Positions 26,086-34,159 of a DNA stretch of 34,159 nucleotides are shown here, in pieces. The notes beneath the pieces are model-generated. The model did no database searches. It worked only from the letters and a program-made list of their open reading frames with translations, and had not been told where the DNA came from. The stretch is taken from the NCBI GenBank assembly GCA_029227155.1, contig JAQXZJ010000077.1:1-34159 (forward strand), given 5' to 3'. A program made the position numbers and the translations under genes. The DNA is from Erysipelotrichaceae bacterium (GTDB taxonomy: Bacteria; Bacillota_I; Bacilli_A; Erysipelotrichales; Erysipelotrichaceae). Positions within the stretch are counted from its first letter, which is position 1. Each line of letters begins with the position of its first letter.

Positions 26086-27120
26086 ATGAATCAAGAATAT
26101 TGGATCGAACCATTAATTGCATGGTATGAAAAAGAAAAGCGCGATTTACCATGGAGGAAGCAACAAGATGCATATGCAGTATGGATCTCAGAAATAATGT
26201 TGCAACAAACTAGAGTGGAAGCAGTGATTCCTTATTATTTAAATTGGATGAAAGTATTTCCTACCATGGAAATATTAGCGAAAGCTGATCAACAACAGGT
26301 GTATCAAATGTGGCAAGGGCTTGGCTATTATTCGCGGGCTAAAAATATTCATGATTGTGCAATTGAATGTGTGAATATGAATCAAGGGAAATTGCCAGCT
26401 AGTTATCAAAAGTTATTAGTATTACCAGGAATAGGAGAATATACCGCAGCAGCAATTAGCAGTATTTGTTTCCATGAAGCACAAAGTGCTGTCGATGGCA
26501 ATGTGTTACGAGTGATGAGTCGTTTGTGGATGGATGATCAAGATATCAGTAAACAGAAAACGAAACAGAATCTAAAGAGACGTTTAGATCTGTTGATACC
26601 AAAAGAGAACCCAGGTGCTTTTAATCAGGCATTGATGGAATTAGGAGCTACCATTTGTATTCCAAATGGTGCTGCTCGTTGCAATATCTGTCCTTTAGCA
26701 TCCTTCTGTTTAAGCTATAAAACAGGTAAAGTATATGAGTATCCAATAAAAACAAGTAAGAAATCACGTAAAATTGAACAACGAATTATTTTAGTTTTGC
26801 AATATCAGGATCAATATTATATTCAAAAGCGTCCAAGTCAAGGGCTATTAGCAAATTTGTATGAATTTATCAATATAGAAAAAGTATCGCAAAAGCAATG
26901 GAAAGAAGATTTGATAAAAAGAGGAATCAAGATTCAAAAGATAAAGAAATTAACTGAATATCGACATGTTTTTACGCATATTGAATGGCAGATGAATGGT
27001 TATTTGATTCAAGTGGAACAGAAGATCGAAGGAATTTGGGTAACAAAAAAGCAAATGGAAGAATATCCATTTGCTAGCTGTTATACACCATTTAAGAACT
27101 TACTTACCGAATCCTTTTAA
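26086..27120 (+). CDS. mutY: A/G-specific adenine DNA glycosylase
   Basis: A 344-residue base-excision repair enzyme that removes adenine mispaired with 8-oxoguanine. The N-terminal HhH-GPD domain shows LPWRKQQDAYAVWISEIMLQQTRVE (catalytic Glu), LPGIGEYTAAAI (helix-hairpin-helix) and VDGNVLRVMSRL (catalytic Asp). A [4Fe-4S] loop follows: CIPNGAARCNICPLASFC, spacing C-x7-C-x2-C-x5-C, one residue longer than in E. coli but a form I have seen in Firmicutes. The C-terminal 120 residues are the NUDIX-like domain that reads 8-oxoG. Its last 21 bases overlap the convergent apbE gene. Confidence 0.94.
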   Translation: MNQEYWIEPLIAWYEKEKRDLPWRKQQDAYAVWISEIMLQQTRVEAVIPYYLNWMKVFPTMEILAKADQQQVYQMWQGLGYYSRAKNIHDCAIECVNMNQGKLPASYQKLLVLPGIGEYTAAAISSICFHEAQSAVDGNVLRVMSRLWMDDQDISKQKTKQNLKRRLDLLIPKENPGAFNQALMELGATICIPNGAARCNICPLASFCLSYKTGKVYEYPIKTSKKSRKIEQRIILVLQYQDQYYIQKRPSQGLLANLYEFINIEKVSQKQWKEDLIKRGIKIQKIKKLTEYRHVFTHIEWQMNGYLIQVEQKIEGIWVTKKQMEEYPFASCYTPFKNLLTESF

Positions 27121-28200
27121 TTGACTTTTTAGATTTTCTGTTGCAACAACAGCAAATCCATTTAATTCAATAGCACCTTCTGCTTTTTGATCCAAATCAT
27201 ATAGCCATACAGCACCGACTTCATCATCAGGATGCGTAGCATTGAAGGTTTCGATAAATTCCATACCTTTCTCTAGATCCATGACAAATAGGGCGGTCGA
27301 TAAGATATCAGCATATCCGGAGTTCTTTGTTACAATTGAAACAGAACGACACTGTTTGGCTGGATATAGTGTATTAGGATCAATGATATGACCATAGCGA
27401 ATGCCATTAGACATGTAATAGCGTTGATAATCACCGCTGGTAACAATAGAATATCCGCCATCTGTATAAACGATGGTAACACTGCTTGAACTTAGATCAT
27501 TTGGATTTCCAATTCCGGTTGCCCATGGATCGTTATTTGGCTTGGTACCAATCAAACGTACATTTCCACCGCCATTGATCGCACCAGCATATAAGCCTGC
27601 TTTTTCTAGTGCTTGGGCAGCTTTTTCAGTCGCAAAACCTTTAGCGATTCCACCAACATCTAAGGAAACATTTTCATTGGTAATAAATACCGTTTTGTTA
27701 ATTTCATCAATTTCCACATATTCCCAACCAGAGTATATTCTAGATGCTTCCAATTCTTGAATTGTTGGAATAGGTGGGTTTGCATTCCCATCCCCATTCA
27801 GTGTTTGTCCATTTTCCCGATATTCATGCCAGATGTTCATGGTTGCGCCCATCGTAGCATCAAATGCACCATCGGTTAAGGTATAGAATTCTTTTGCTAG
27901 TAACAATAATTCAATGATTGCATCATCTACAATAACAGGTTGTTTTCCTGCTTGATCATTGATCGTTTTCAAATTATTGATGCCTTCATAAGTATTGTAT
28001 TTATCAAATAACTGGTTGTAGTATTCAAATTCTTTTTTCATCTGTTCGAAATACTTATTAAATTCAGATTCTGATTTTGTATAGCCAATTAACGTAATAA
28101 CAGTATCAAATCCTAAACTAGAAGCACTATATTTTTCCATTTTTGGACTGCATCCTAATAGCAAAAATAGTACCATCATTGAAATTAATAATTTCTTCAT
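27100..28200 (-). CDS. apbE: FAD:protein FMN transferase, lipoprotein
   Basis: A 366-residue protein that attaches FMN covalently to threonines of target proteins outside the cytoplasm, using FAD as donor. The signal peptide (MKKLLISMMVLFLLLGC) ends in a lipobox with Cys17. The ApbE motifs follow: GFDTVITLIGY, DGAFDATMGATMNIW, NVSLDVGGIAKGFATEKAA, AGAINGGGNVRLIG, SIVTSGDYQRYY, HIIDPNTLYPA and ADILSTALF (metal-binding Asp and Thr). ATG 28200 is preferred over a GTG and an ATG just upstream. It is divergent from the Rnf operon, whose RnfD and RnfG are expected substrates. It overlaps mutY at its 3' end by 21 bases. Confidence 0.93.
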   Translation of the reverse strand: MKKLLISMMVLFLLLGCSPKMEKYSASSLGFDTVITLIGYTKSESEFNKYFEQMKKEFEYYNQLFDKYNTYEGINNLKTINDQAGKQPVIVDDAIIELLLLAKEFYTLTDGAFDATMGATMNIWHEYRENGQTLNGDGNANPPIPTIQELEASRIYSGWEYVEIDEINKTVFITNENVSLDVGGIAKGFATEKAAQALEKAGLYAGAINGGGNVRLIGTKPNNDPWATGIGNPNDLSSSSVTIVYTDGGYSIVTSGDYQRYYMSNGIRYGHIIDPNTLYPAKQCRSVSIVTKNSGYADILSTALFVMDLEKGMEFIETFNATHPDDEVGAVWLYDLDQKAEGAIELNGFAVVATENLKSQLKGFGK

Positions 28201-28216
28201 ATTCATCACCGCGGTT

Positions 28217-28251: not shown

Positions 28252-28296
28252 AAATGATTATAGTTGATAATATAAATATTCAAATGATTATAATTG
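28252..28296 (+). repeat. Two 15-bp direct repeats between apbE and rnfC
   Basis: AAATGATTATAGTTG (28252-28266) and AAATGATTATAATTG (28282-28296) differ at one base and are spaced exactly 30 bp start to start, three helical turns. They lie between the two divergent extended -10 boxes, the second touching the rnfC promoter. A regulator site is likely; the regulator is unknown. Confidence 0.6.
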
Positions 28297-28333: not shown

Positions 28334-28339
28334 ATGTAA
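28334..28339 (+). other. Start-stop element (AUG-UAA) in the rnfC leader
   Basis: An ATG at 28334 is followed directly by TAA (28337-28339), whose last A is the first base of the rnfC ATG. The ribosome-binding site GAAGGGAG lies five bases before this first ATG and ten before the rnfC start, so the minimal frame is better placed. Confidence 0.45.
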
Positions 28340-29643
28340 TGTCATTATTTACAGGAGCTATGCGTAAGCATGTAGATGGTAAAAAAGATTTGACAAACCA
28401 TACGGAGCTTGTAAAAGTACAAGCTGGTGAAAAGGTGTACATTCCTTTAATCAATATGGGATCTACAAAAGTAGATGTATTGGTTAAAGAAGGTGACACA
28501 GTATCAGTCGGCACCAAAATTGCAATGCGCAATGATAACTTTGTGGTTCCGATTTTTTCAAGTGTTTCAGGTACTGTTGTTGGGGTAGAAAAAAGAATGC
28601 ACAGTTGCTTGAAATTAGTTGAGCATTTGGTTATTGCAAACGACGGAAAATATACCAAAAAGTATGATATCCAACCATTAGATTGGAGAAAAGCAACAAG
28701 AGAAGAACTTGTTGAATTCATGATGAATAGTGGTATGGTCGGTTGTGGAGGAGCTGGATTCCCAACTTACATCAAATATAAGTTCGCTAAAGATATTCAT
28801 ACATTGATTATCAATGATGTAGAATGTGAACCTTATATTACAGCAGATTATCGTGAATCTGAAATCCATATGCCTTTATTGTTAGAAGGTGTTTCTGCAA
28901 TGAAGAAGATGTGTGGAGCAAAAGTTGCTTATATTGCAATTAAGGAAACGAAAAAAGAATTGATTGCAAAATTAAAAGAAGCTGTTGCTAATGTTGAAGG
29001 AGTAGAAGTAAAAGAAGTTCCTGATGTTTATCCAATGGGATGGGAACGTACGTTGGTTTATGAAATTACAAAACAACGTTATGACAAATTGCCTTCAGAA
29101 TTAGGTATTATTGTGAATAATGCGACAACTGCAGTATCTTTTGCAAAAGCATTGACAACAGGAGAACCTATCGTTTCTAAAATCGTAACATTCTCTGGAG
29201 ATGCTTTGGTAAAGTGTGCAAATGTGGAAGTTCCAGTTGGGGTTCCTGTTGGGGAAATTATTCAACAATTAGGTGGTTACAGCAAAGAAAATATTCACTT
29301 GATTGCTGGTGGCCCTATGATGGGAAAGGCAATTGTGAATGATCAATTTGTAATTCATGCATATACCAATGCGGTAACTGTGCTTGAAGCAAAGGAAGAA
29401 AAAGAAATTGGATGTTTGAGATGTGGTCGTTGTAACGATTACTGTCCTGCAGGTATTCAACCAGTTCGTTTGAATAATGCAGCAAAGATTAAAGATATTG
29501 ATATGATCGAAAAACTAGAAGTTCAACGTTGTATTGAATGTGGTATGTGTACCTATGTTTGTCCTTCTCATATCAAAGTAACAGAAGGTGTTAGAAAAGC
29601 AAAACAAGTCTTGGCAATGGCACCTAAAAAGGGAGGTAAATAA
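28339..29643 (+). CDS. rnfC: Rnf complex subunit C (NADH-side, two [4Fe-4S])
   Basis: A 434-residue peripheral subunit that passes electrons to or from NAD+. An N-terminal barrel (KVYIPLINMGSTKVDVLVKEGDTV) precedes the NADH/FMN Rossmann-like domain with GCGGAGFPTYIKYKFA, VECEPYITADYRE and the SLBB domain (GEIIQQLGGYSKENI). Two ferredoxin motifs follow, CLRCGRCNDYCPAGIQP and CIECGMCTYVCPSHI. Length and order are standard for RnfC. The start follows a start-stop element (see 28334) and GAAGGGAG. It is the first gene of the operon, in the order common in clostridia (C-D-G-E-A-B). Electrons pass ultimately between ferredoxin and NAD, coupled to Na+ or H+ pumping. Confidence 0.94.
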   Translation: MSLFTGAMRKHVDGKKDLTNHTELVKVQAGEKVYIPLINMGSTKVDVLVKEGDTVSVGTKIAMRNDNFVVPIFSSVSGTVVGVEKRMHSCLKLVEHLVIANDGKYTKKYDIQPLDWRKATREELVEFMMNSGMVGCGGAGFPTYIKYKFAKDIHTLIINDVECEPYITADYRESEIHMPLLLEGVSAMKKMCGAKVAYIAIKETKKELIAKLKEAVANVEGVEVKEVPDVYPMGWERTLVYEITKQRYDKLPSELGIIVNNATTAVSFAKALTTGEPIVSKIVTFSGDALVKCANVEVPVGVPVGEIIQQLGGYSKENIHLIAGGPMMGKAIVNDQFVIHAYTNAVTVLEAKEEKEIGCLRCGRCNDYCPAGIQPVRLNNAAKIKDIDMIEKLEVQRCIECGMCTYVCPSHIKVTEGVRKAKQVLAMAPKKGGK

Positions 29644-29644
29644 G

Positions 29645-31129
29645 ATGAAATTTAAATTGAATCCGGCTCCTAATTACCATTGCGGTGCAAGCACAAGAAA
29701 GATCATGCTGGAATTAACAATCGCTTTATTGGTTGTTTTTGCCTTTGGATTGTTCCATCAATTTACAGCTCATGGAATGAAGAATGTGATCCATGTATGT
29801 GCGTTGATGTTAAGTAGTGTTGCAACCGCAGTGATTGTTGAAATGCTTTGGGCTGTATGTGTAGTGAAGGTGAATCCGGTTGCTTATATTCGGGATTCTT
29901 TCCCTTGGGTAACATCAATTATCTTAGTATTGATGGTTCCTGCAAATACGAATATTTATCCAATTATTATTGGTACTTTATTTGCAATTGTGGTTGCTAA
30001 ATTATTCTTTGGTGGATTTGGTCAAAATGTATTCAATCCAGCTGCTATCGGTTGTGCAATTATTTTCTCATTTTTTGCAACAAGTTTAGCTGCGGATGTT
30101 CAAACATTTGCAACTCCTACTAAGACAATTGCGGCAACTTATGGTTGGGTAATGAATGATCCTTCATTGATTGGTGAATTCTTAGATAAGTTTGGTGGTT
30201 TATGGGGGCTTTTCATTGGCTCTTATGATGGAGCAATCGGTGAAACTTGCACAGCTTTAATTTTATTGTGCGGTGTCTATCTTGCTGTTCGTAAAGTCAT
30301 TGACTGGAGAGTTCCTGTATTCTACTTAGGTACAGTATTTGTATTGGCTAGCATTATTGGTCTTGTTCATGGTGCTGGTATCTGGTATCCTGTTTTCCAT
30401 GTTTTAACAGGTGGTGTAGTGTTCGGTGCTGTATTTATGGCAACTGACCCTGTTACAAATCCAACAACAAATGCCGGAAAAGTTATTTTCGCAATTGGTT
30501 GTGGATTGTTAACTGTTTTAATTCGTGTAAAAGGAAGCTTACCAGAAGGTGTATTATATTCTATTTTATTGATGAATATGTTAACTCCTTGGATTGAACG
30601 TGCTTGTGCAGGTGTTCAATATCAATTAGGTAAAAAACTATTGCCTTTATTAACCGGACTTGTGGCTGTTTCTGTTGGTTTGGTATTTGCAGTAGCGAAT
30701 ATGATTGCTCCTGTGGTTCCTGAAATTCCAAAGGTTCCTGAATTCTTAAATGCCGATAAGCATTTCACAATGGCAGATTCATTTGAAGAATATCCTGCAA
30801 AAGTTGTGAATAAAGCAAAAGATGGAGACTATGTCGTTTATAAAGTGGAAGCAAACGGATATGCATTTGGTCATTATGATGATCCAGAACCAAATATCTT
30901 CTTGATTACGATCGATCCAGCTTCTAGAACGGTTGTAAAAGTTGCCTACGAAAAATTTAATGATACGGAATATGTAGGAGATAATACAATGGATTCTCGT
31001 TTCTTATCACAATTTGAAGGTATGTCAATTGATGATGATAATGCTGGTGTTGATACCGTAACAAATGCAACGATCACATCACAATCAGTAATTAGTGCTG
31101 TACAGGCTGCTGTACAGGCTGCACGTTAG
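29645..31129 (+). CDS. rnfD: Rnf complex subunit D with extra C-terminal FMN-binding domain
   Basis: A 494-residue protein, against roughly 310-350 for usual RnfD. Residues 1-355 are a standard RnfD: about ten membrane segments, HCGASTRKIMLELTIALL at the start, the flavin-attachment region GAIGETCTAL (Thr201 the likely FMN site) and FMATDPVTNPTT. Residues 356-494 are an added, water-soluble domain that matches FMN-binding proteins such as RnfG: GDYVVYKVEANGYAFG, FLITIDPASRTVVKVAYE, FLSQFEGM and finally VDTVTNATITSQSV, the flavinylation signature with Thr476. There is no stop or gap between the parts, so it is a true fusion. A separate RnfG follows 12 bases downstream. Start 29645 follows GGGAGG; a longer in-frame extension overlaps rnfC and is rejected. 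Confidence 0.92.
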   Translation: MKFKLNPAPNYHCGASTRKIMLELTIALLVVFAFGLFHQFTAHGMKNVIHVCALMLSSVATAVIVEMLWAVCVVKVNPVAYIRDSFPWVTSIILVLMVPANTNIYPIIIGTLFAIVVAKLFFGGFGQNVFNPAAIGCAIIFSFFATSLAADVQTFATPTKTIAATYGWVMNDPSLIGEFLDKFGGLWGLFIGSYDGAIGETCTALILLCGVYLAVRKVIDWRVPVFYLGTVFVLASIIGLVHGAGIWYPVFHVLTGGVVFGAVFMATDPVTNPTTNAGKVIFAIGCGLLTVLIRVKGSLPEGVLYSILLMNMLTPWIERACAGVQYQLGKKLLPLLTGLVAVSVGLVFAVANMIAPVVPEIPKVPEFLNADKHFTMADSFEEYPAKVVNKAKDGDYVVYKVEANGYAFGHYDDPEPNIFLITIDPASRTVVKVAYEKFNDTEYVGDNTMDSRFLSQFEGMSIDDDNAGVDTVTNATITSQSVISAVQAAVQAAR

Positions 31130-31141
31130 GGAGGTAAGGTT

Positions 31142-31654
31142 ATGAAAAGAGCAATTTATTTAGCATGTTTCTTAGCCATTGTAAGTGCCCTAGCTGGCGG
31201 TGCTTTGACTTTGGCAAATGATATGACGATTGATCGGATCAATGAAAATAAAGTCGCTGTAGATAAAGCTAACTTGGAAATCATTTATCCAGGTGCTACT
31301 TTTACACCAGTTGAGAATTTTAAAGATGATTCAGGTAAAATTGTTTCTATTTATCAAGCAGGTGAACAAGGTTATGTTTACAAATTGGCAGTTGATGGAT
31401 TTGGTGGAAAAGGTTCTATTGAATTCATGATTGGTTTTGGTTCAGATGGTAAAGTATCTGGATTTACGGTATTGTCTTGTTTAGATACTAAAGACATTGG
31501 TACGAAAGTACAAGAACCTGATTTTGCAAATAAGATCATTGGTTCTGACATTGGTTCAAAAGTGGATACTATTTCTGGATCAACGGTATCTAGTAGTGCT
31601 GTTGTTGGTGGTATTGATATTGCGGCTGGACATTATTCAGCTAACTTTAAGTAG
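31142..31654 (+). CDS. rnfG: Rnf complex subunit G (covalent FMN)
   Basis: A 170-residue protein with one N-terminal membrane anchor (LACFLAIVSALAGGALTLA) and an extracytoplasmic FMN-binding domain. Landmarks are YVYKLAVDGFGGKGSIEFMIGF, the CLDTKDIGTKVQEPDFANKI block, and the flavinylation motif DTISGSTVSSSAV, where Thr148 should carry FMN attached by ApbE. Length is normal. It follows rnfD by 12 bases with GGAGG and is 11 bases before rnfE. With the RnfD fusion it gives the complex two RnfG-like domains. Confidence 0.92.
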   Translation: MKRAIYLACFLAIVSALAGGALTLANDMTIDRINENKVAVDKANLEIIYPGATFTPVENFKDDSGKIVSIYQAGEQGYVYKLAVDGFGGKGSIEFMIGFGSDGKVSGFTVLSCLDTKDIGTKVQEPDFANKIIGSDIGSKVDTISGSTVSSSAVVGGIDIAAGHYSANFK

Positions 31655-31665
31655 GAGGTAAGAAC

Positions 31666-32334
31666 ATGGAAAACAAAAAACCAAATTTCTTTCAGAGTTT
31701 GATTCTTGAAAACCCAGTCTTTGTCCTTTACTTAGGTATCTGTTCAATCTTGGGTGTTTCAACATCTTTAGATAATGCGATTGGTATGAGTATCATCGTA
31801 TTTGTTGTCTTGTTATTTTCTAATATTATTGTAAGTTTATTACGTAAAATTACACCAAATGAAATTCGTATTCCAGTATACATCGTAATTATTGCTACGT
31901 TGGTATCTGTTGCTGAAATGTTTATCAAAGCATATGCACCAAGCTTGTATACATCAATGGGAGCATTCATTTCTTTGGTTGTTGTTAACTGTATTATTCT
32001 TGGACGTGCAGAAGCATGTGCAAGTAAGAATAACGTATGGGTTTCTATTAAAGATGCTTGTGTTATGGGAGCAGGATATGCAGTTGCTATTTTGTCAATC
32101 TCTGTTCTTCGTCAATTCTTTACAACAGGTGGATTGAGTTTCTCAAATCCATTGAATATGGCAAAAATCTTTGAGTTTACTTTAATTCCAGAAGAATTCA
32201 CAATTGCTTTATTTGGTAAACCTGTAGGAGCATTTATTACATTTGGTATTCTAGCAGCTGTCTTTGCGGCTTATAAGAATAGTCATGATCAAAAAGTCGC
32301 TGCCGCATTGAAGAAAGCAAAGGAGGCTAAATAA
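31666..32334 (+). CDS. rnfE: Rnf complex subunit E
   Basis: A 222-residue integral membrane protein with six membrane segments. NFFQSLILENPVFVLYLGICSILGV opens it, followed by RIPVYIVIIATLVSVAEM, SLYTSMGAFISLVVVNCIILGRAEACA (the conserved Cys that contributes, with RnfA, to an intramembrane iron-sulphur cluster) and PVGAFITFG near the end. The half-inverted pair RnfA/RnfE forms the core of the ion-translocating part. It is two bases before rnfA, with the AAGGAGG of rnfA inside its end. Confidence 0.94.
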   Translation: MENKKPNFFQSLILENPVFVLYLGICSILGVSTSLDNAIGMSIIVFVVLLFSNIIVSLLRKITPNEIRIPVYIVIIATLVSVAEMFIKAYAPSLYTSMGAFISLVVVNCIILGRAEACASKNNVWVSIKDACVMGAGYAVAILSISVLRQFFTTGGLSFSNPLNMAKIFEFTLIPEEFTIALFGKPVGAFITFGILAAVFAAYKNSHDQKVAAALKKAKEAK

Positions 32335-32336
32335 TT

Positions 32337-32912
32337 ATGGGTGAACTACTAACATTATTCTTATCGACTGTATTGATCGATAATATCATTTTGTCTCATT
32401 TCTTGGGTATGTGCCCTTTTATGGGAGTAAGTAAAAACAGAAGTTCTGCATTAGGTATGGGATTTGCTGTACTATTTGTTATTGTTGGTGCTTCCATCTT
32501 CACATTTGGTTTATACCATTTAGTTTTGGTTAATTTTGGATTAGAATATTTAGAGTTGATTACTTTCATTTTGGTAATTGCTTGTTTTGTTCAATTCACA
32601 GAATTGTTCTTAAAGAAATTCTCTCCAGCTTTATATAAGAGCTTAGGAATTTTCTTGCCATTGATTACAACAAACTGTGCAGTTTTATATGTTGCATTGG
32701 ATAATATTACCAATAACTATTCTTTTGTTGAAACACTTGTTAACAGTGTTGGTGTATCTGTCGGATTTATGTTGGTGTTATATATTTTCTCAACAATTCG
32801 GGAACGTTTAGATGTTTCTAAACCATTGAAGAGTTTTGTAGGAAATCCACTAGCATTGATTACTGCAGGCTTAATGGCATTAGCGTTCAGCGGATTGGCC
32901 GGTTTGATCTAA
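32337..32912 (+). CDS. rnfA: Rnf complex subunit A
   Basis: A 191-residue membrane protein with six helices, the partner of RnfE. It starts ELLTLFLSTVLIDNIILSHFLGMCPFMGVSKN, the highly conserved RnfA opening with the Cys that binds the intramembrane cluster. It also shows KSLGIFLPLITTNCAVLYVAL and the family's ending GLMALAFSGLAGLI. Length and conserved cysteines are normal. The next small gene begins one base after its stop (TAAG-ATG). Confidence 0.94.
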   Translation: MGELLTLFLSTVLIDNIILSHFLGMCPFMGVSKNRSSALGMGFAVLFVIVGASIFTFGLYHLVLVNFGLEYLELITFILVIACFVQFTELFLKKFSPALYKSLGIFLPLITTNCAVLYVALDNITNNYSFVETLVNSVGVSVGFMLVLYIFSTIRERLDVSKPLKSFVGNPLALITAGLMALAFSGLAGLI

Positions 32913-32913
32913 G

Positions 32914-33108
32914 ATGCAATCAATTGTTGGTTTGTTTGTTGTTCTAGGTGGCTTAGGTTCTCTATACGCAGTTCTTTATTATTTTAATAAGAAGACCCCA
33001 GAACCAGAAGGCTGTGAAGAAATAGAACAACATTGTAGTGGATGTGGTATCACTTCATGTGGTCGTCATCCAAGTCATAATGAAGTAAAGGAGAATAAAC
33101 CATGTTAA
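32914..33108 (+). CDS. Cysteine-rich small membrane protein between rnfA and rnfB
   Basis: A 64-residue protein I cannot assign to a named family. Residues 4-24 are a membrane helix (IVGLFVVLGGLGSLYAVLYYF). The rest is polar with five cysteines: Cys34, then HCSGCGITSCGRHP (Cys41, 44, 49) and a terminal Cys64, suitable for metal or cluster binding. The layout, a short N-terminal helix then a Cys cluster, resembles NqrM, which delivers iron to the NqrDE intramembrane cluster, and FeoB-associated Cys-rich proteins; this is analogy, not homology shown. Its stop overlaps the rnfB ATG by seven bases and the rnfB ribosome-binding site AAAGGAG lies within it, so it must be translated with rnfA and rnfB. 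Confidence 0.75.
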   Translation: MQSIVGLFVVLGGLGSLYAVLYYFNKKTPEPEGCEEIEQHCSGCGITSCGRHPSHNEVKENKPC

Positions 33109-33410
33109 ATGCAATTTTAGTTACATTGGTTATTGGTGCTTTGTTGGGATTGATTTTAGGAATTGCTTCTAAAGTATTTGAAGTCAAAGAAGATCCAAGA
33201 TTAGCAAAAGTTACAGAAATGTTACCAGGATACAATTGCGGTGGATGTGGATTTGCTGGATGTTCTAGCATGGCTGCTGCTTTGGTTAATCAGGATGTTT
33301 CAACAACAAGTCATTGTAAACCATGTAAAAAAGAACAACGTTTGGCTATCGTTCAATATTTGAATGAAACACCTGGTCCAAATGGTGAACTTTGTAAAGT
33401 AAAAGATTAA
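33102..33410 (+). CDS. rnfB: Rnf complex subunit B, short form without ferredoxin domains
   Basis: A 102-residue protein, versus about 190-330 for usual RnfB. Residues 1-25 are the membrane helix (LNAILVTLVIGALLGLILG) and 26-80 the conserved cluster-binding domain: LPGYNCGGCGFAGCSSMAAAL, with Cys46, Cys49, Cys54 and Cys72 in the [4Fe-4S] pattern C-x2-C-x4-C-x17-C; Cys75 and Cys98 are extra. The two-ferredoxin C-terminal part that accepts electrons from ferredoxin is missing. The frame ends in a stop followed after eight bases by a strong terminator, so this is not a frameshift or edge effect. The lost function must be supplied in trans or is not needed. Confidence 0.88.
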   Translation: MLNAILVTLVIGALLGLILGIASKVFEVKEDPRLAKVTEMLPGYNCGGCGFAGCSSMAAALVNQDVSTTSHCKPCKKEQRLAIVQYLNETPGPNGELCKVKD

Positions 33411-33418
33411 AATCAAAG

Positions 33419-33447
33419 AAGGTCTATATTGATAGACCTTTTTTTAA
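33419..33447 (+). terminator. Terminator of the rnf operon
   Basis: AAGGTCTAT (33419-33427) pairs perfectly with ATAGACCTT (33432-33440) around loop ATTG, followed by a T run. Its right arm also holds the -35 box of the next promoter. Confidence 0.9.
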
Positions 33448-33461: not shown

Positions 33462-33487
33462 AGAGTTGTTTGAAAGGAAGAATGCTA

Positions 33488-34159
33488 ATGCCTGATTGTG
33501 ATTCCGTAAGAAAAACGCTTCTTACATTGGTTGATGAACCATATCGTGAATTTCATGCTCATCTGATTCCAGGGATGAATAATAATTTAGGCATTCGTAC
33601 TCCACAATTGAGAAAACTGGCAAAACAGATTGCGAAAGATGAGGGATTGCATTATTTAAATCATGCACCTGAAGAATATTATGAAGAAATTCTATTAGAA
33701 GGAATGGTAATCGGCTATGTGAATTGTGATGTTTCATCACGCTTAGAGGCAATCGAGGCATATCTACCTAAAATTGATAATTGGGCCACTTGTGATATGT
33801 TTGTGAGTACACTCAAATTTACTAAGAAACAACAACAAGTAGTATGGGATTGGTTACAACCTTTTGTGTTTAGTACAAGGGAATTTGAAGTTCGTTTTGC
33901 AATTGTAATGATATTGAGTTACTATTTGTATGACCCGTATTTAGATTTGTGTTATTCTGTATTCGATCAGATCAAACATCAAGGTTATTATGTGAAAATG
34001 GCACTTGCTTGGGCAGTATCGATAGCATATATAAAAGAACCAGAGCGGACTCTGATTTATTTGCAGCATTGTAAACTGGATGATTGGACTTTTCATAAAG
34101 CAATACAAAAAATAAGAGAGTCTCATCGAGTGAATGATCAACAAAAAGCATTATTACAA
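33488..34159 (+). CDS. DNA alkylation repair protein, AlkD-like (partial at right edge)
   Basis: 224 codons are present and the frame runs off the window. The HEAT-repeat glycosylase family is recognised by IPGMNNNLGIRTPQLRKLAK at the start, LLEGMVIGYV, DNWATCDMF (the conserved N-W-x-x-C-D motif), FEVRFAIVMILSYY, YYVKMALAWAVSIAYIK and TFHKAIQKIRES. These remove 3-methyladenine and 7-methylguanine from DNA without base flipping. The C-terminal few residues are missing only because of the edge. ATG 33488 is preferred to the in-frame ATG 33482 from the spacing to AAAGGA. It has its own promoter overlapping the rnf terminator. Confidence 0.88.
   Translation, partial: MPDCDSVRKTLLTLVDEPYREFHAHLIPGMNNNLGIRTPQLRKLAKQIAKDEGLHYLNHAPEEYYEEILLEGMVIGYVNCDVSSRLEAIEAYLPKIDNWATCDMFVSTLKFTKKQQQVVWDWLQPFVFSTREFEVRFAIVMILSYYLYDPYLDLCYSVFDQIKHQGYYVKMALAWAVSIAYIKEPERTLIYLQHCKLDDWTFHKAIQKIRESHRVNDQQKALLQ

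Follow-up and report, generated by a model that had tools for sequence, protein, structure and literature searches.

The rnf operon of the window (the whole analysed stretch of 34,159 nucleotides from an Erysipelotrichaceae bacterium) encodes an RnfB without ferredoxin-accepting domains, which consists, as the first-pass annotation had proposed, of a membrane helix and one [4Fe-4S] domain, is 102 residues long and has no Fer4 domain. This one-cluster RnfB is the normal form across the class Bacilli, and the Rnf of this organism is probably a complete and functional complex of a lineage-specific type, with direct docking of ferredoxin and a microprotein as partner. The microprotein, a cysteine-rich protein of 64 amino acids that we call Cys64, is apparently undescribed so far and is the real lead here.

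Anatomy of the operon and of its RnfB

The operon lies on the forward strand at the 3' end of the window in the order rnfC, rnfD, rnfG, rnfE, rnfA, a gene of 64 codons and rnfB. The subunits other than RnfB had been described as intact and are indeed all whole according to Pfam and NCBIfam. RnfC (28339–29643, with 28339 as the likely start of an ORF that opens at 28294; Pfam and NCBIfam) carries a normal NADH/FMN domain and two [4Fe-4S] motifs, RnfD (29645–31129, likely start at 29645, ORF opening at 29588; Pfam) has a C-terminal FMN_bind domain with the motif TNATIT, RnfG (31142–31654; Pfam) has one FMN_bind domain with the motif SGSTVS, and RnfE (31666–32334) and RnfA (32337–32912) were both recognized by Pfam as well as NCBIfam. 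An ApbE flavin transferase is encoded divergently from the operon on the reverse strand (27100–28209; Pfam and NCBIfam). The gene for Cys64 (32914–33108, forward strand) is located between rnfA and rnfB, and as its last 7 bases overlap the start of rnfB (CCATGTTAA), both genes are probably translationally coupled. The rnfB gene itself (33102–33410, forward strand) begins with ATG and ends with TAA at 33408–33410, and about 8 bases further on an intrinsic terminator on the same strand (hairpin stem 33415–33444 with a U tract, −14.1 kcal/mol, z = −4.3) closes the operon. The terminator was thus found right after the stop as previously claimed, and because this strong hairpin occupies the stretch, no remnant of RnfB follows. 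Past the terminator, at 33470–34159, there is a gene for DNA alkylation repair (PF08713) that is open at the window end.

RnfB was characterized by ORF call, Pfam, alignment and AlphaFold. Its membrane helix comprises residues 2–25 and is followed by the [4Fe-4S] domain with the cysteines C46, C49, C54 and C72 and by a basic C-terminal helix or tail (KPCKKEQR...TPGPNG). Pfam finds the FeS domain PF04060 alone (residues 41–67, 40.2 bits at a cut-off of 23) and no Fer4 in the ORF, nor is there any downstream of the stop. Both the architecture, an N-terminal membrane helix and then an FeS domain of the pattern C-x2-C-x4-C-x(15-17)-C, and the position in an rnf operon that also encodes RnfC, D, G, E and A are those of an RnfB, but the C-terminal Fer4 domains typical of the subunit (2–7 clusters) are missing. 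Such domains are not obligatory, as the RnfB of Thermotoga maritima does without them. The NCBIfam RnfB models align to the protein through the N-terminal 75–90 positions only, and its score for the rnfB subfamily TIGR01944 (60.6 bits) is below the curated cut-off of 68.7 because only positions 6–92 of 190 can match. In an alignment of 24 short RnfB 18 columns are invariant, all four cluster cysteines among them, and the tail is conserved as well, often as YLxxTPGPDG. The AlphaFold model (pLDDT 89.7, tail included) shows no disordered end, and its best fold matches are the RnfB of Acetobacterium woodii (probability 1.00, E 1.4e-3) and the [4Fe-4S] domain of the corrinoid iron-sulfur protein, to which FdI of Clostridium tetanomorphum has likewise been likened (PMC9588780). 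The solved RnfB chains 9eri_B, 7zc6_B and 8ahx_B align with residues 1–74.

A full-length RnfB cut by a false stop, be it a sequencing error or a pseudogene, would explain the short length and nothing more, and we consider this practically out of the question: RnfB has equal length in genomes of the same genus and in about 120 other genomes, the tail TPGPDG is conserved and the terminator follows directly. In two relatives from the same genus the homologue likewise has 102 amino acids (about 70% identity), and the short RnfB recurs in dozens of other genomes, so that the stop at 33408–33410 is no sequencing error. There is also no full-length RnfB elsewhere in the source genome (1.64 Mb, 98% complete), in which a search with PF04060 gave two further proteins, a hydrogenase-like one and an FeS protein of 395 amino acids. 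Both are larger and lack the membrane anchor of RnfB, and a second RnfB copy was therefore rejected.

Distribution and phylogeny of the short RnfB

Of 392 genomes from across the phylum 125 bear an RnfB, and in 121 of them the short form is the only one, with ORFs of mostly 90–135 residues. It is also present in most of the RnfB carriers among 60 relatives, where a minority, mostly from one family, has 260–270 residues. The named loci with a short RnfB belong to Erysipelotrichaceae (Holdemanella biformis, Solobacterium), Candidatus Stoquefichus, Massilimicrobiota, Acholeplasma, Izemoplasma and Anaeroplasmataceae; for Clostridia, Bacteroidota, Thermodesulfobacteriota, Spirochaetota and others every RnfB among the best 80 matches listed is long. 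Full-text searches of the openly accessible literature, with subscription papers outside their scope, gave no report of a short RnfB in Bacilli.

To take the operon history independently of RnfB itself, this subunit was left out and a quick tree without bootstrap was reconstructed from RnfA, RnfE and RnfC of 92 loci, with the genus of the window represented by locus L024. A single branch (SH-aLRT 100) separates the 49 short-RnfB operons from all others with one state change, and the clade of short RnfB that had been looked for thus exists. As these operons form a single branch, the short RnfB is, judged from this tree, an old operon type and no recent truncation. Classical long-RnfB operons from members of the taxonomic order to which the window belongs (L053, L055–L061) group with Clostridia in the same tree, which suggests that whole-operon exchange is behind them.

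Several variants were seen in addition. Two loci (L157, 7625–8188, reverse strand; L158, 6782–7333, forward strand) encode an RnfB with duplicated FdI, which has 183–187 residues, two tandem FeS domains and no Fer4 domain seen. Three genomes of one genus (G083, G153 and G177; e.g. L160, 1339–7250) each show three short RnfB matches, and this genus has one operon with an RnfG of 669 residues and without a linked microprotein. In Acholeplasmataceae loci such as L078 (4540–5527) about 1 kb lies between rnfG and rnfE, probably with a further gene.

Electron path and flavin domains

It had been expected that an RnfB of this kind changes the accepted electron path of Rnf, which is not supported, as a one-cluster RnfB already works in T. 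maritima (PMC7414866). This RnfB has 10.56 kDa and one predicted [4Fe-4S] cluster, the authors adding that the cluster number ‘remains to be established’ (PMC7414866), and it is described as FdI only in the C. tetanomorphum paper (PMC9588780). The purified T. maritima Rnf oxidised ferredoxin from C. pasteurianum, and it also reduced NAD+ and pumped Na+ (PMC7414866); the accepted path thus becomes shorter but does not change. Both systems share the RnfB cut to FdI and the operon order rnfCDGEAB. T. maritima, compared here by its published description, differs from the window in belonging to another phylum and lying outside the short-RnfB clade, in that no microprotein is reported between its rnfA and rnfB, and in its RnfD, which has no flavin-domain fusion according to the reported mass of 34.6 kDa. 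Canonical Rnf, as found in A. woodii, C. tetanomorphum and Azotobacter, has the same six subunits and the same FdI/B8 cysteine motif, but in addition to the FdI/B8 cluster its RnfB holds two to seven more [4Fe-4S] clusters on ferredoxin domains at the C-terminus. The N-terminal cluster domain (FdI, B8 in A. woodii) is treated in structural papers as the electron donor to RnfA/E (PMC9588780, PMC11889175), and in A. woodii B8 reaches in between RnfA and RnfE, and the clusters mutated away to test the pathway included that of B8 (PMC11889175). Since FdI/B8 is already the last cytoplasmic station of the accepted path, the short form only drops the upstream wire.

From the two alternatives offered previously for the electron input, docking of ferredoxin straight onto the short RnfB is best supported and a takeover by another protein less so. 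For this organism we infer that the mobile FdI domain is most likely the direct docking site of ferredoxin. RnfB would be pared to its membrane helix and this mobile one-cluster domain; soluble ferredoxin would dock on FdI beside a basic patch past the fourth cysteine and reduce the single [4Fe-4S] cluster, FdI would swing into the groove of RnfA/E and reduce the [2Fe-2S] there, and the electrons would then follow the standard U-shaped route from the RnfG FMN via RnfD and RnfC to NAD+ with ion pumping, or the reverse. Past the fourth cysteine most short RnfB have K/R-P-x-K/N, whereas the long forms have P-V-G-G, and the mean charge of the 15 residues behind it is +0.80 in short and −0.61 in long RnfB (p ~1e-9, ignoring kinship). 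The genome encodes PFOR and a small 2[4Fe-4S] ferredoxin, which is acidic by inspection. From the sequences, a basic docking patch for ferredoxin on the short RnfB can reasonably be inferred. Compensation through added ferredoxin domains of RnfC was rejected, as Pfam finds none in the window RnfC and the RnfC tail lengths are similar. In the literature searched we found no experiments on any Bacilli Rnf.

The FMN_bind domain added to the window RnfD would also fit a pump in which ferredoxin is no longer the main partner, NADH or another carrier feeding it and the electrons leaving to the outside via the extra flavin domains of RnfD and RnfG. A multi-flavinylated RnfG has been proposed to serve external acceptors (PMC8238504), and long versions of both subunits are common in short-RnfB operons: RnfD exceeds 440 amino acids in 30/54 short-RnfB loci versus 1/59 long ones, and RnfG exceeds 250 amino acids in 13/52 versus 2/57. 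The extra flavin domains are thus enriched in short-RnfB operons, not required, and the RnfD fusion does not always accompany the short RnfB as had been supposed, so that an obligatory coupling was rejected. However, many short-RnfB operons have neither extension, with an RnfD of about 365–380 and an RnfG of about 170 amino acids (L026, L032, L034, L043), all core subunits from ferredoxin to NAD are kept, PFOR and ferredoxin are present, and the short-RnfB Rnf of T. maritima works with ferredoxin (PMC7414866). An outward transfer in place of ferredoxin oxidation is in our opinion improbable, and direct ferredoxin docking is preferred. The relatives have the added flavin domains on either RnfD or RnfG, or lack them on both, and the window has one on RnfD besides that of RnfG itself.

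The Cys64 microprotein

The model of Cys64 shows a membrane helix at residues 2–27, which is followed by C34, C41, C44 and C49, and is disordered beyond the helix. In the alignment the family has the pattern N-x2-T-P-x-P-x-G-C-E-x5-C-x-G-C-x4-C past the helix, with three cysteines invariant, and no Pfam or NCBIfam family covers it. In a published rnf list of Peloplasma one gene number is skipped at the place of the microprotein, as known from the numbering alone.

As linked we counted any ORF in the rnfA–rnfB gap with a hydrophobic stretch and then C-x2-C-x(2-6)-C. Such an ORF is present in 55 of 56 short-RnfB loci and in none of 41 long ones, and the suspected co-occurrence of the short RnfB with the cysteine-rich 64-mer is therefore near-perfect. 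At the genome level a profile detects Cys64 in 113 of the 121 genomes with a short RnfB, in none of four with only long forms and in two of 267 without RnfB, both being weak matches (113/121 vs 2/271, Fisher p ~1e-85, inflated by kinship). Six of the eight profile-negative short-RnfB genomes hold a shorter, diverged copy in the rnfA–rnfB gap, the smallest with 35 residues, and no copy was found in two of the 121 (G170 and G234). In nine genomes from four families rnfA abuts or overlaps rnfB and the operon has no microprotein, and each of them has a stand-alone copy elsewhere. Cys64 is thus kept in trans, which speaks for a functional link with Rnf and against mere operon inertia. Where inspected, the neighbours of stand-alone copies are housekeeping genes (tRNA synthetases, signal peptidase II, phosphoglucomutase, PDH E1), and a role of these homologues in another redox complex was rejected on this basis.

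What Cys64 does is a guess from its architecture and linkage. Our first choice, for which we see the chances as evenly balanced, is a membrane-bound factor similar to NqrM that would deliver iron or iron-sulfur to RnfA/E or RnfB as a partner dedicated to the short-RnfB type of Rnf. NqrM seems to be needed for insertion of the intramembrane [2Fe-2S] of Nqr (review PMC12174285), and NqrM (PF04400, DUF539) and Cys64 are both small proteins from pump operons with one membrane helix and then a four-cysteine segment, the spacing being C-x11-C-x-C-x3-C in NqrM versus C-x6-C-x2-C-x4-C in Cys64. Pfam gave no PF04400 match in the Cys64 alignment members, and against two NqrM sequences, from Klebsiella and Aeromonas chromosomes, hhalign aligned only the membrane helix (14%) without a significant match. 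Membership of Cys64 in the NqrM family is not supported by these results; as the spacing differs and no profile match is significant, NqrM is an analogue and not the same family. A profile search with PF04400 found nothing in 168 genomes of rnf-bearing phyla. With sizes of 5.4 and 4.9 Mb, the entries CP125156.1 and NZ_AP026896.1 of the plasmid collection are evidently chromosomes. FeoB-associated cysteine-rich membrane proteins (PF12669) also combine a tiny membrane helix with a cysteine cluster and match weakly in 7/24 Cys64 relatives (best E 0.008), but the window protein has no match and the genome search was negative, so that this assignment is not supported either.

The cysteines of Cys64 could also hold an iron-sulfur cluster of their own, with Cys64 as a seventh Rnf subunit that would, together with the short RnfB, stand in for the lost ferredoxin domains as electron entry or relay. 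They lie directly past the membrane helix and are accompanied by a basic residue of the kind usual on a cytoplasmic face, their C-x2-C-x4-C spacing is that of the RnfB FeS domain, the profile has a weak similarity (28%) to the RnfB N-terminus, and the protein accompanies short but not long RnfB. Nevertheless, the minimal members (35–57 amino acids) have three cysteines only, which are too few for a stable [4Fe-4S] cluster without a partner ligand and fit transient metal binding or delivery better than a permanent four-cysteine cluster. The two genomes without a visible copy and the disorder in the model also speak against a subunit, and the published T. maritima order rnfCDGEAB names no extra gene (PMC7414866). 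We regard a relay subunit as rather unlikely, and equally doubtful is the broader proposal that the Bacilli Rnf is a distinct type, in which a seventh component, a membrane microprotein of 35–80 residues (C-x2-C-x(2-5)-C), would complete the electron input of the one-cluster RnfB via a further metal centre where the electrons enter RnfA/E. Besides the preferred delivery factor and these relay models, the rest of the probability falls to something else, for example assembly without metal.

In summary the short RnfB gives ferredoxin the most minimal entry into Rnf that is possible, and this is no oddity of Thermotoga but standard in a class with many gut bacteria and wall-less relatives. The working core of the pump thereby comes down to a single mobile cluster. 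The short RnfB comes with a conserved microprotein that rnf annotations have passed over. If Cys64 is a true maturation factor, it would be the Rnf counterpart of NqrM and fill a gap in what is known about the assembly of the intramembrane [2Fe-2S] of Rnf; Cys64 could then also matter for making the Rnf complex in a foreign host.
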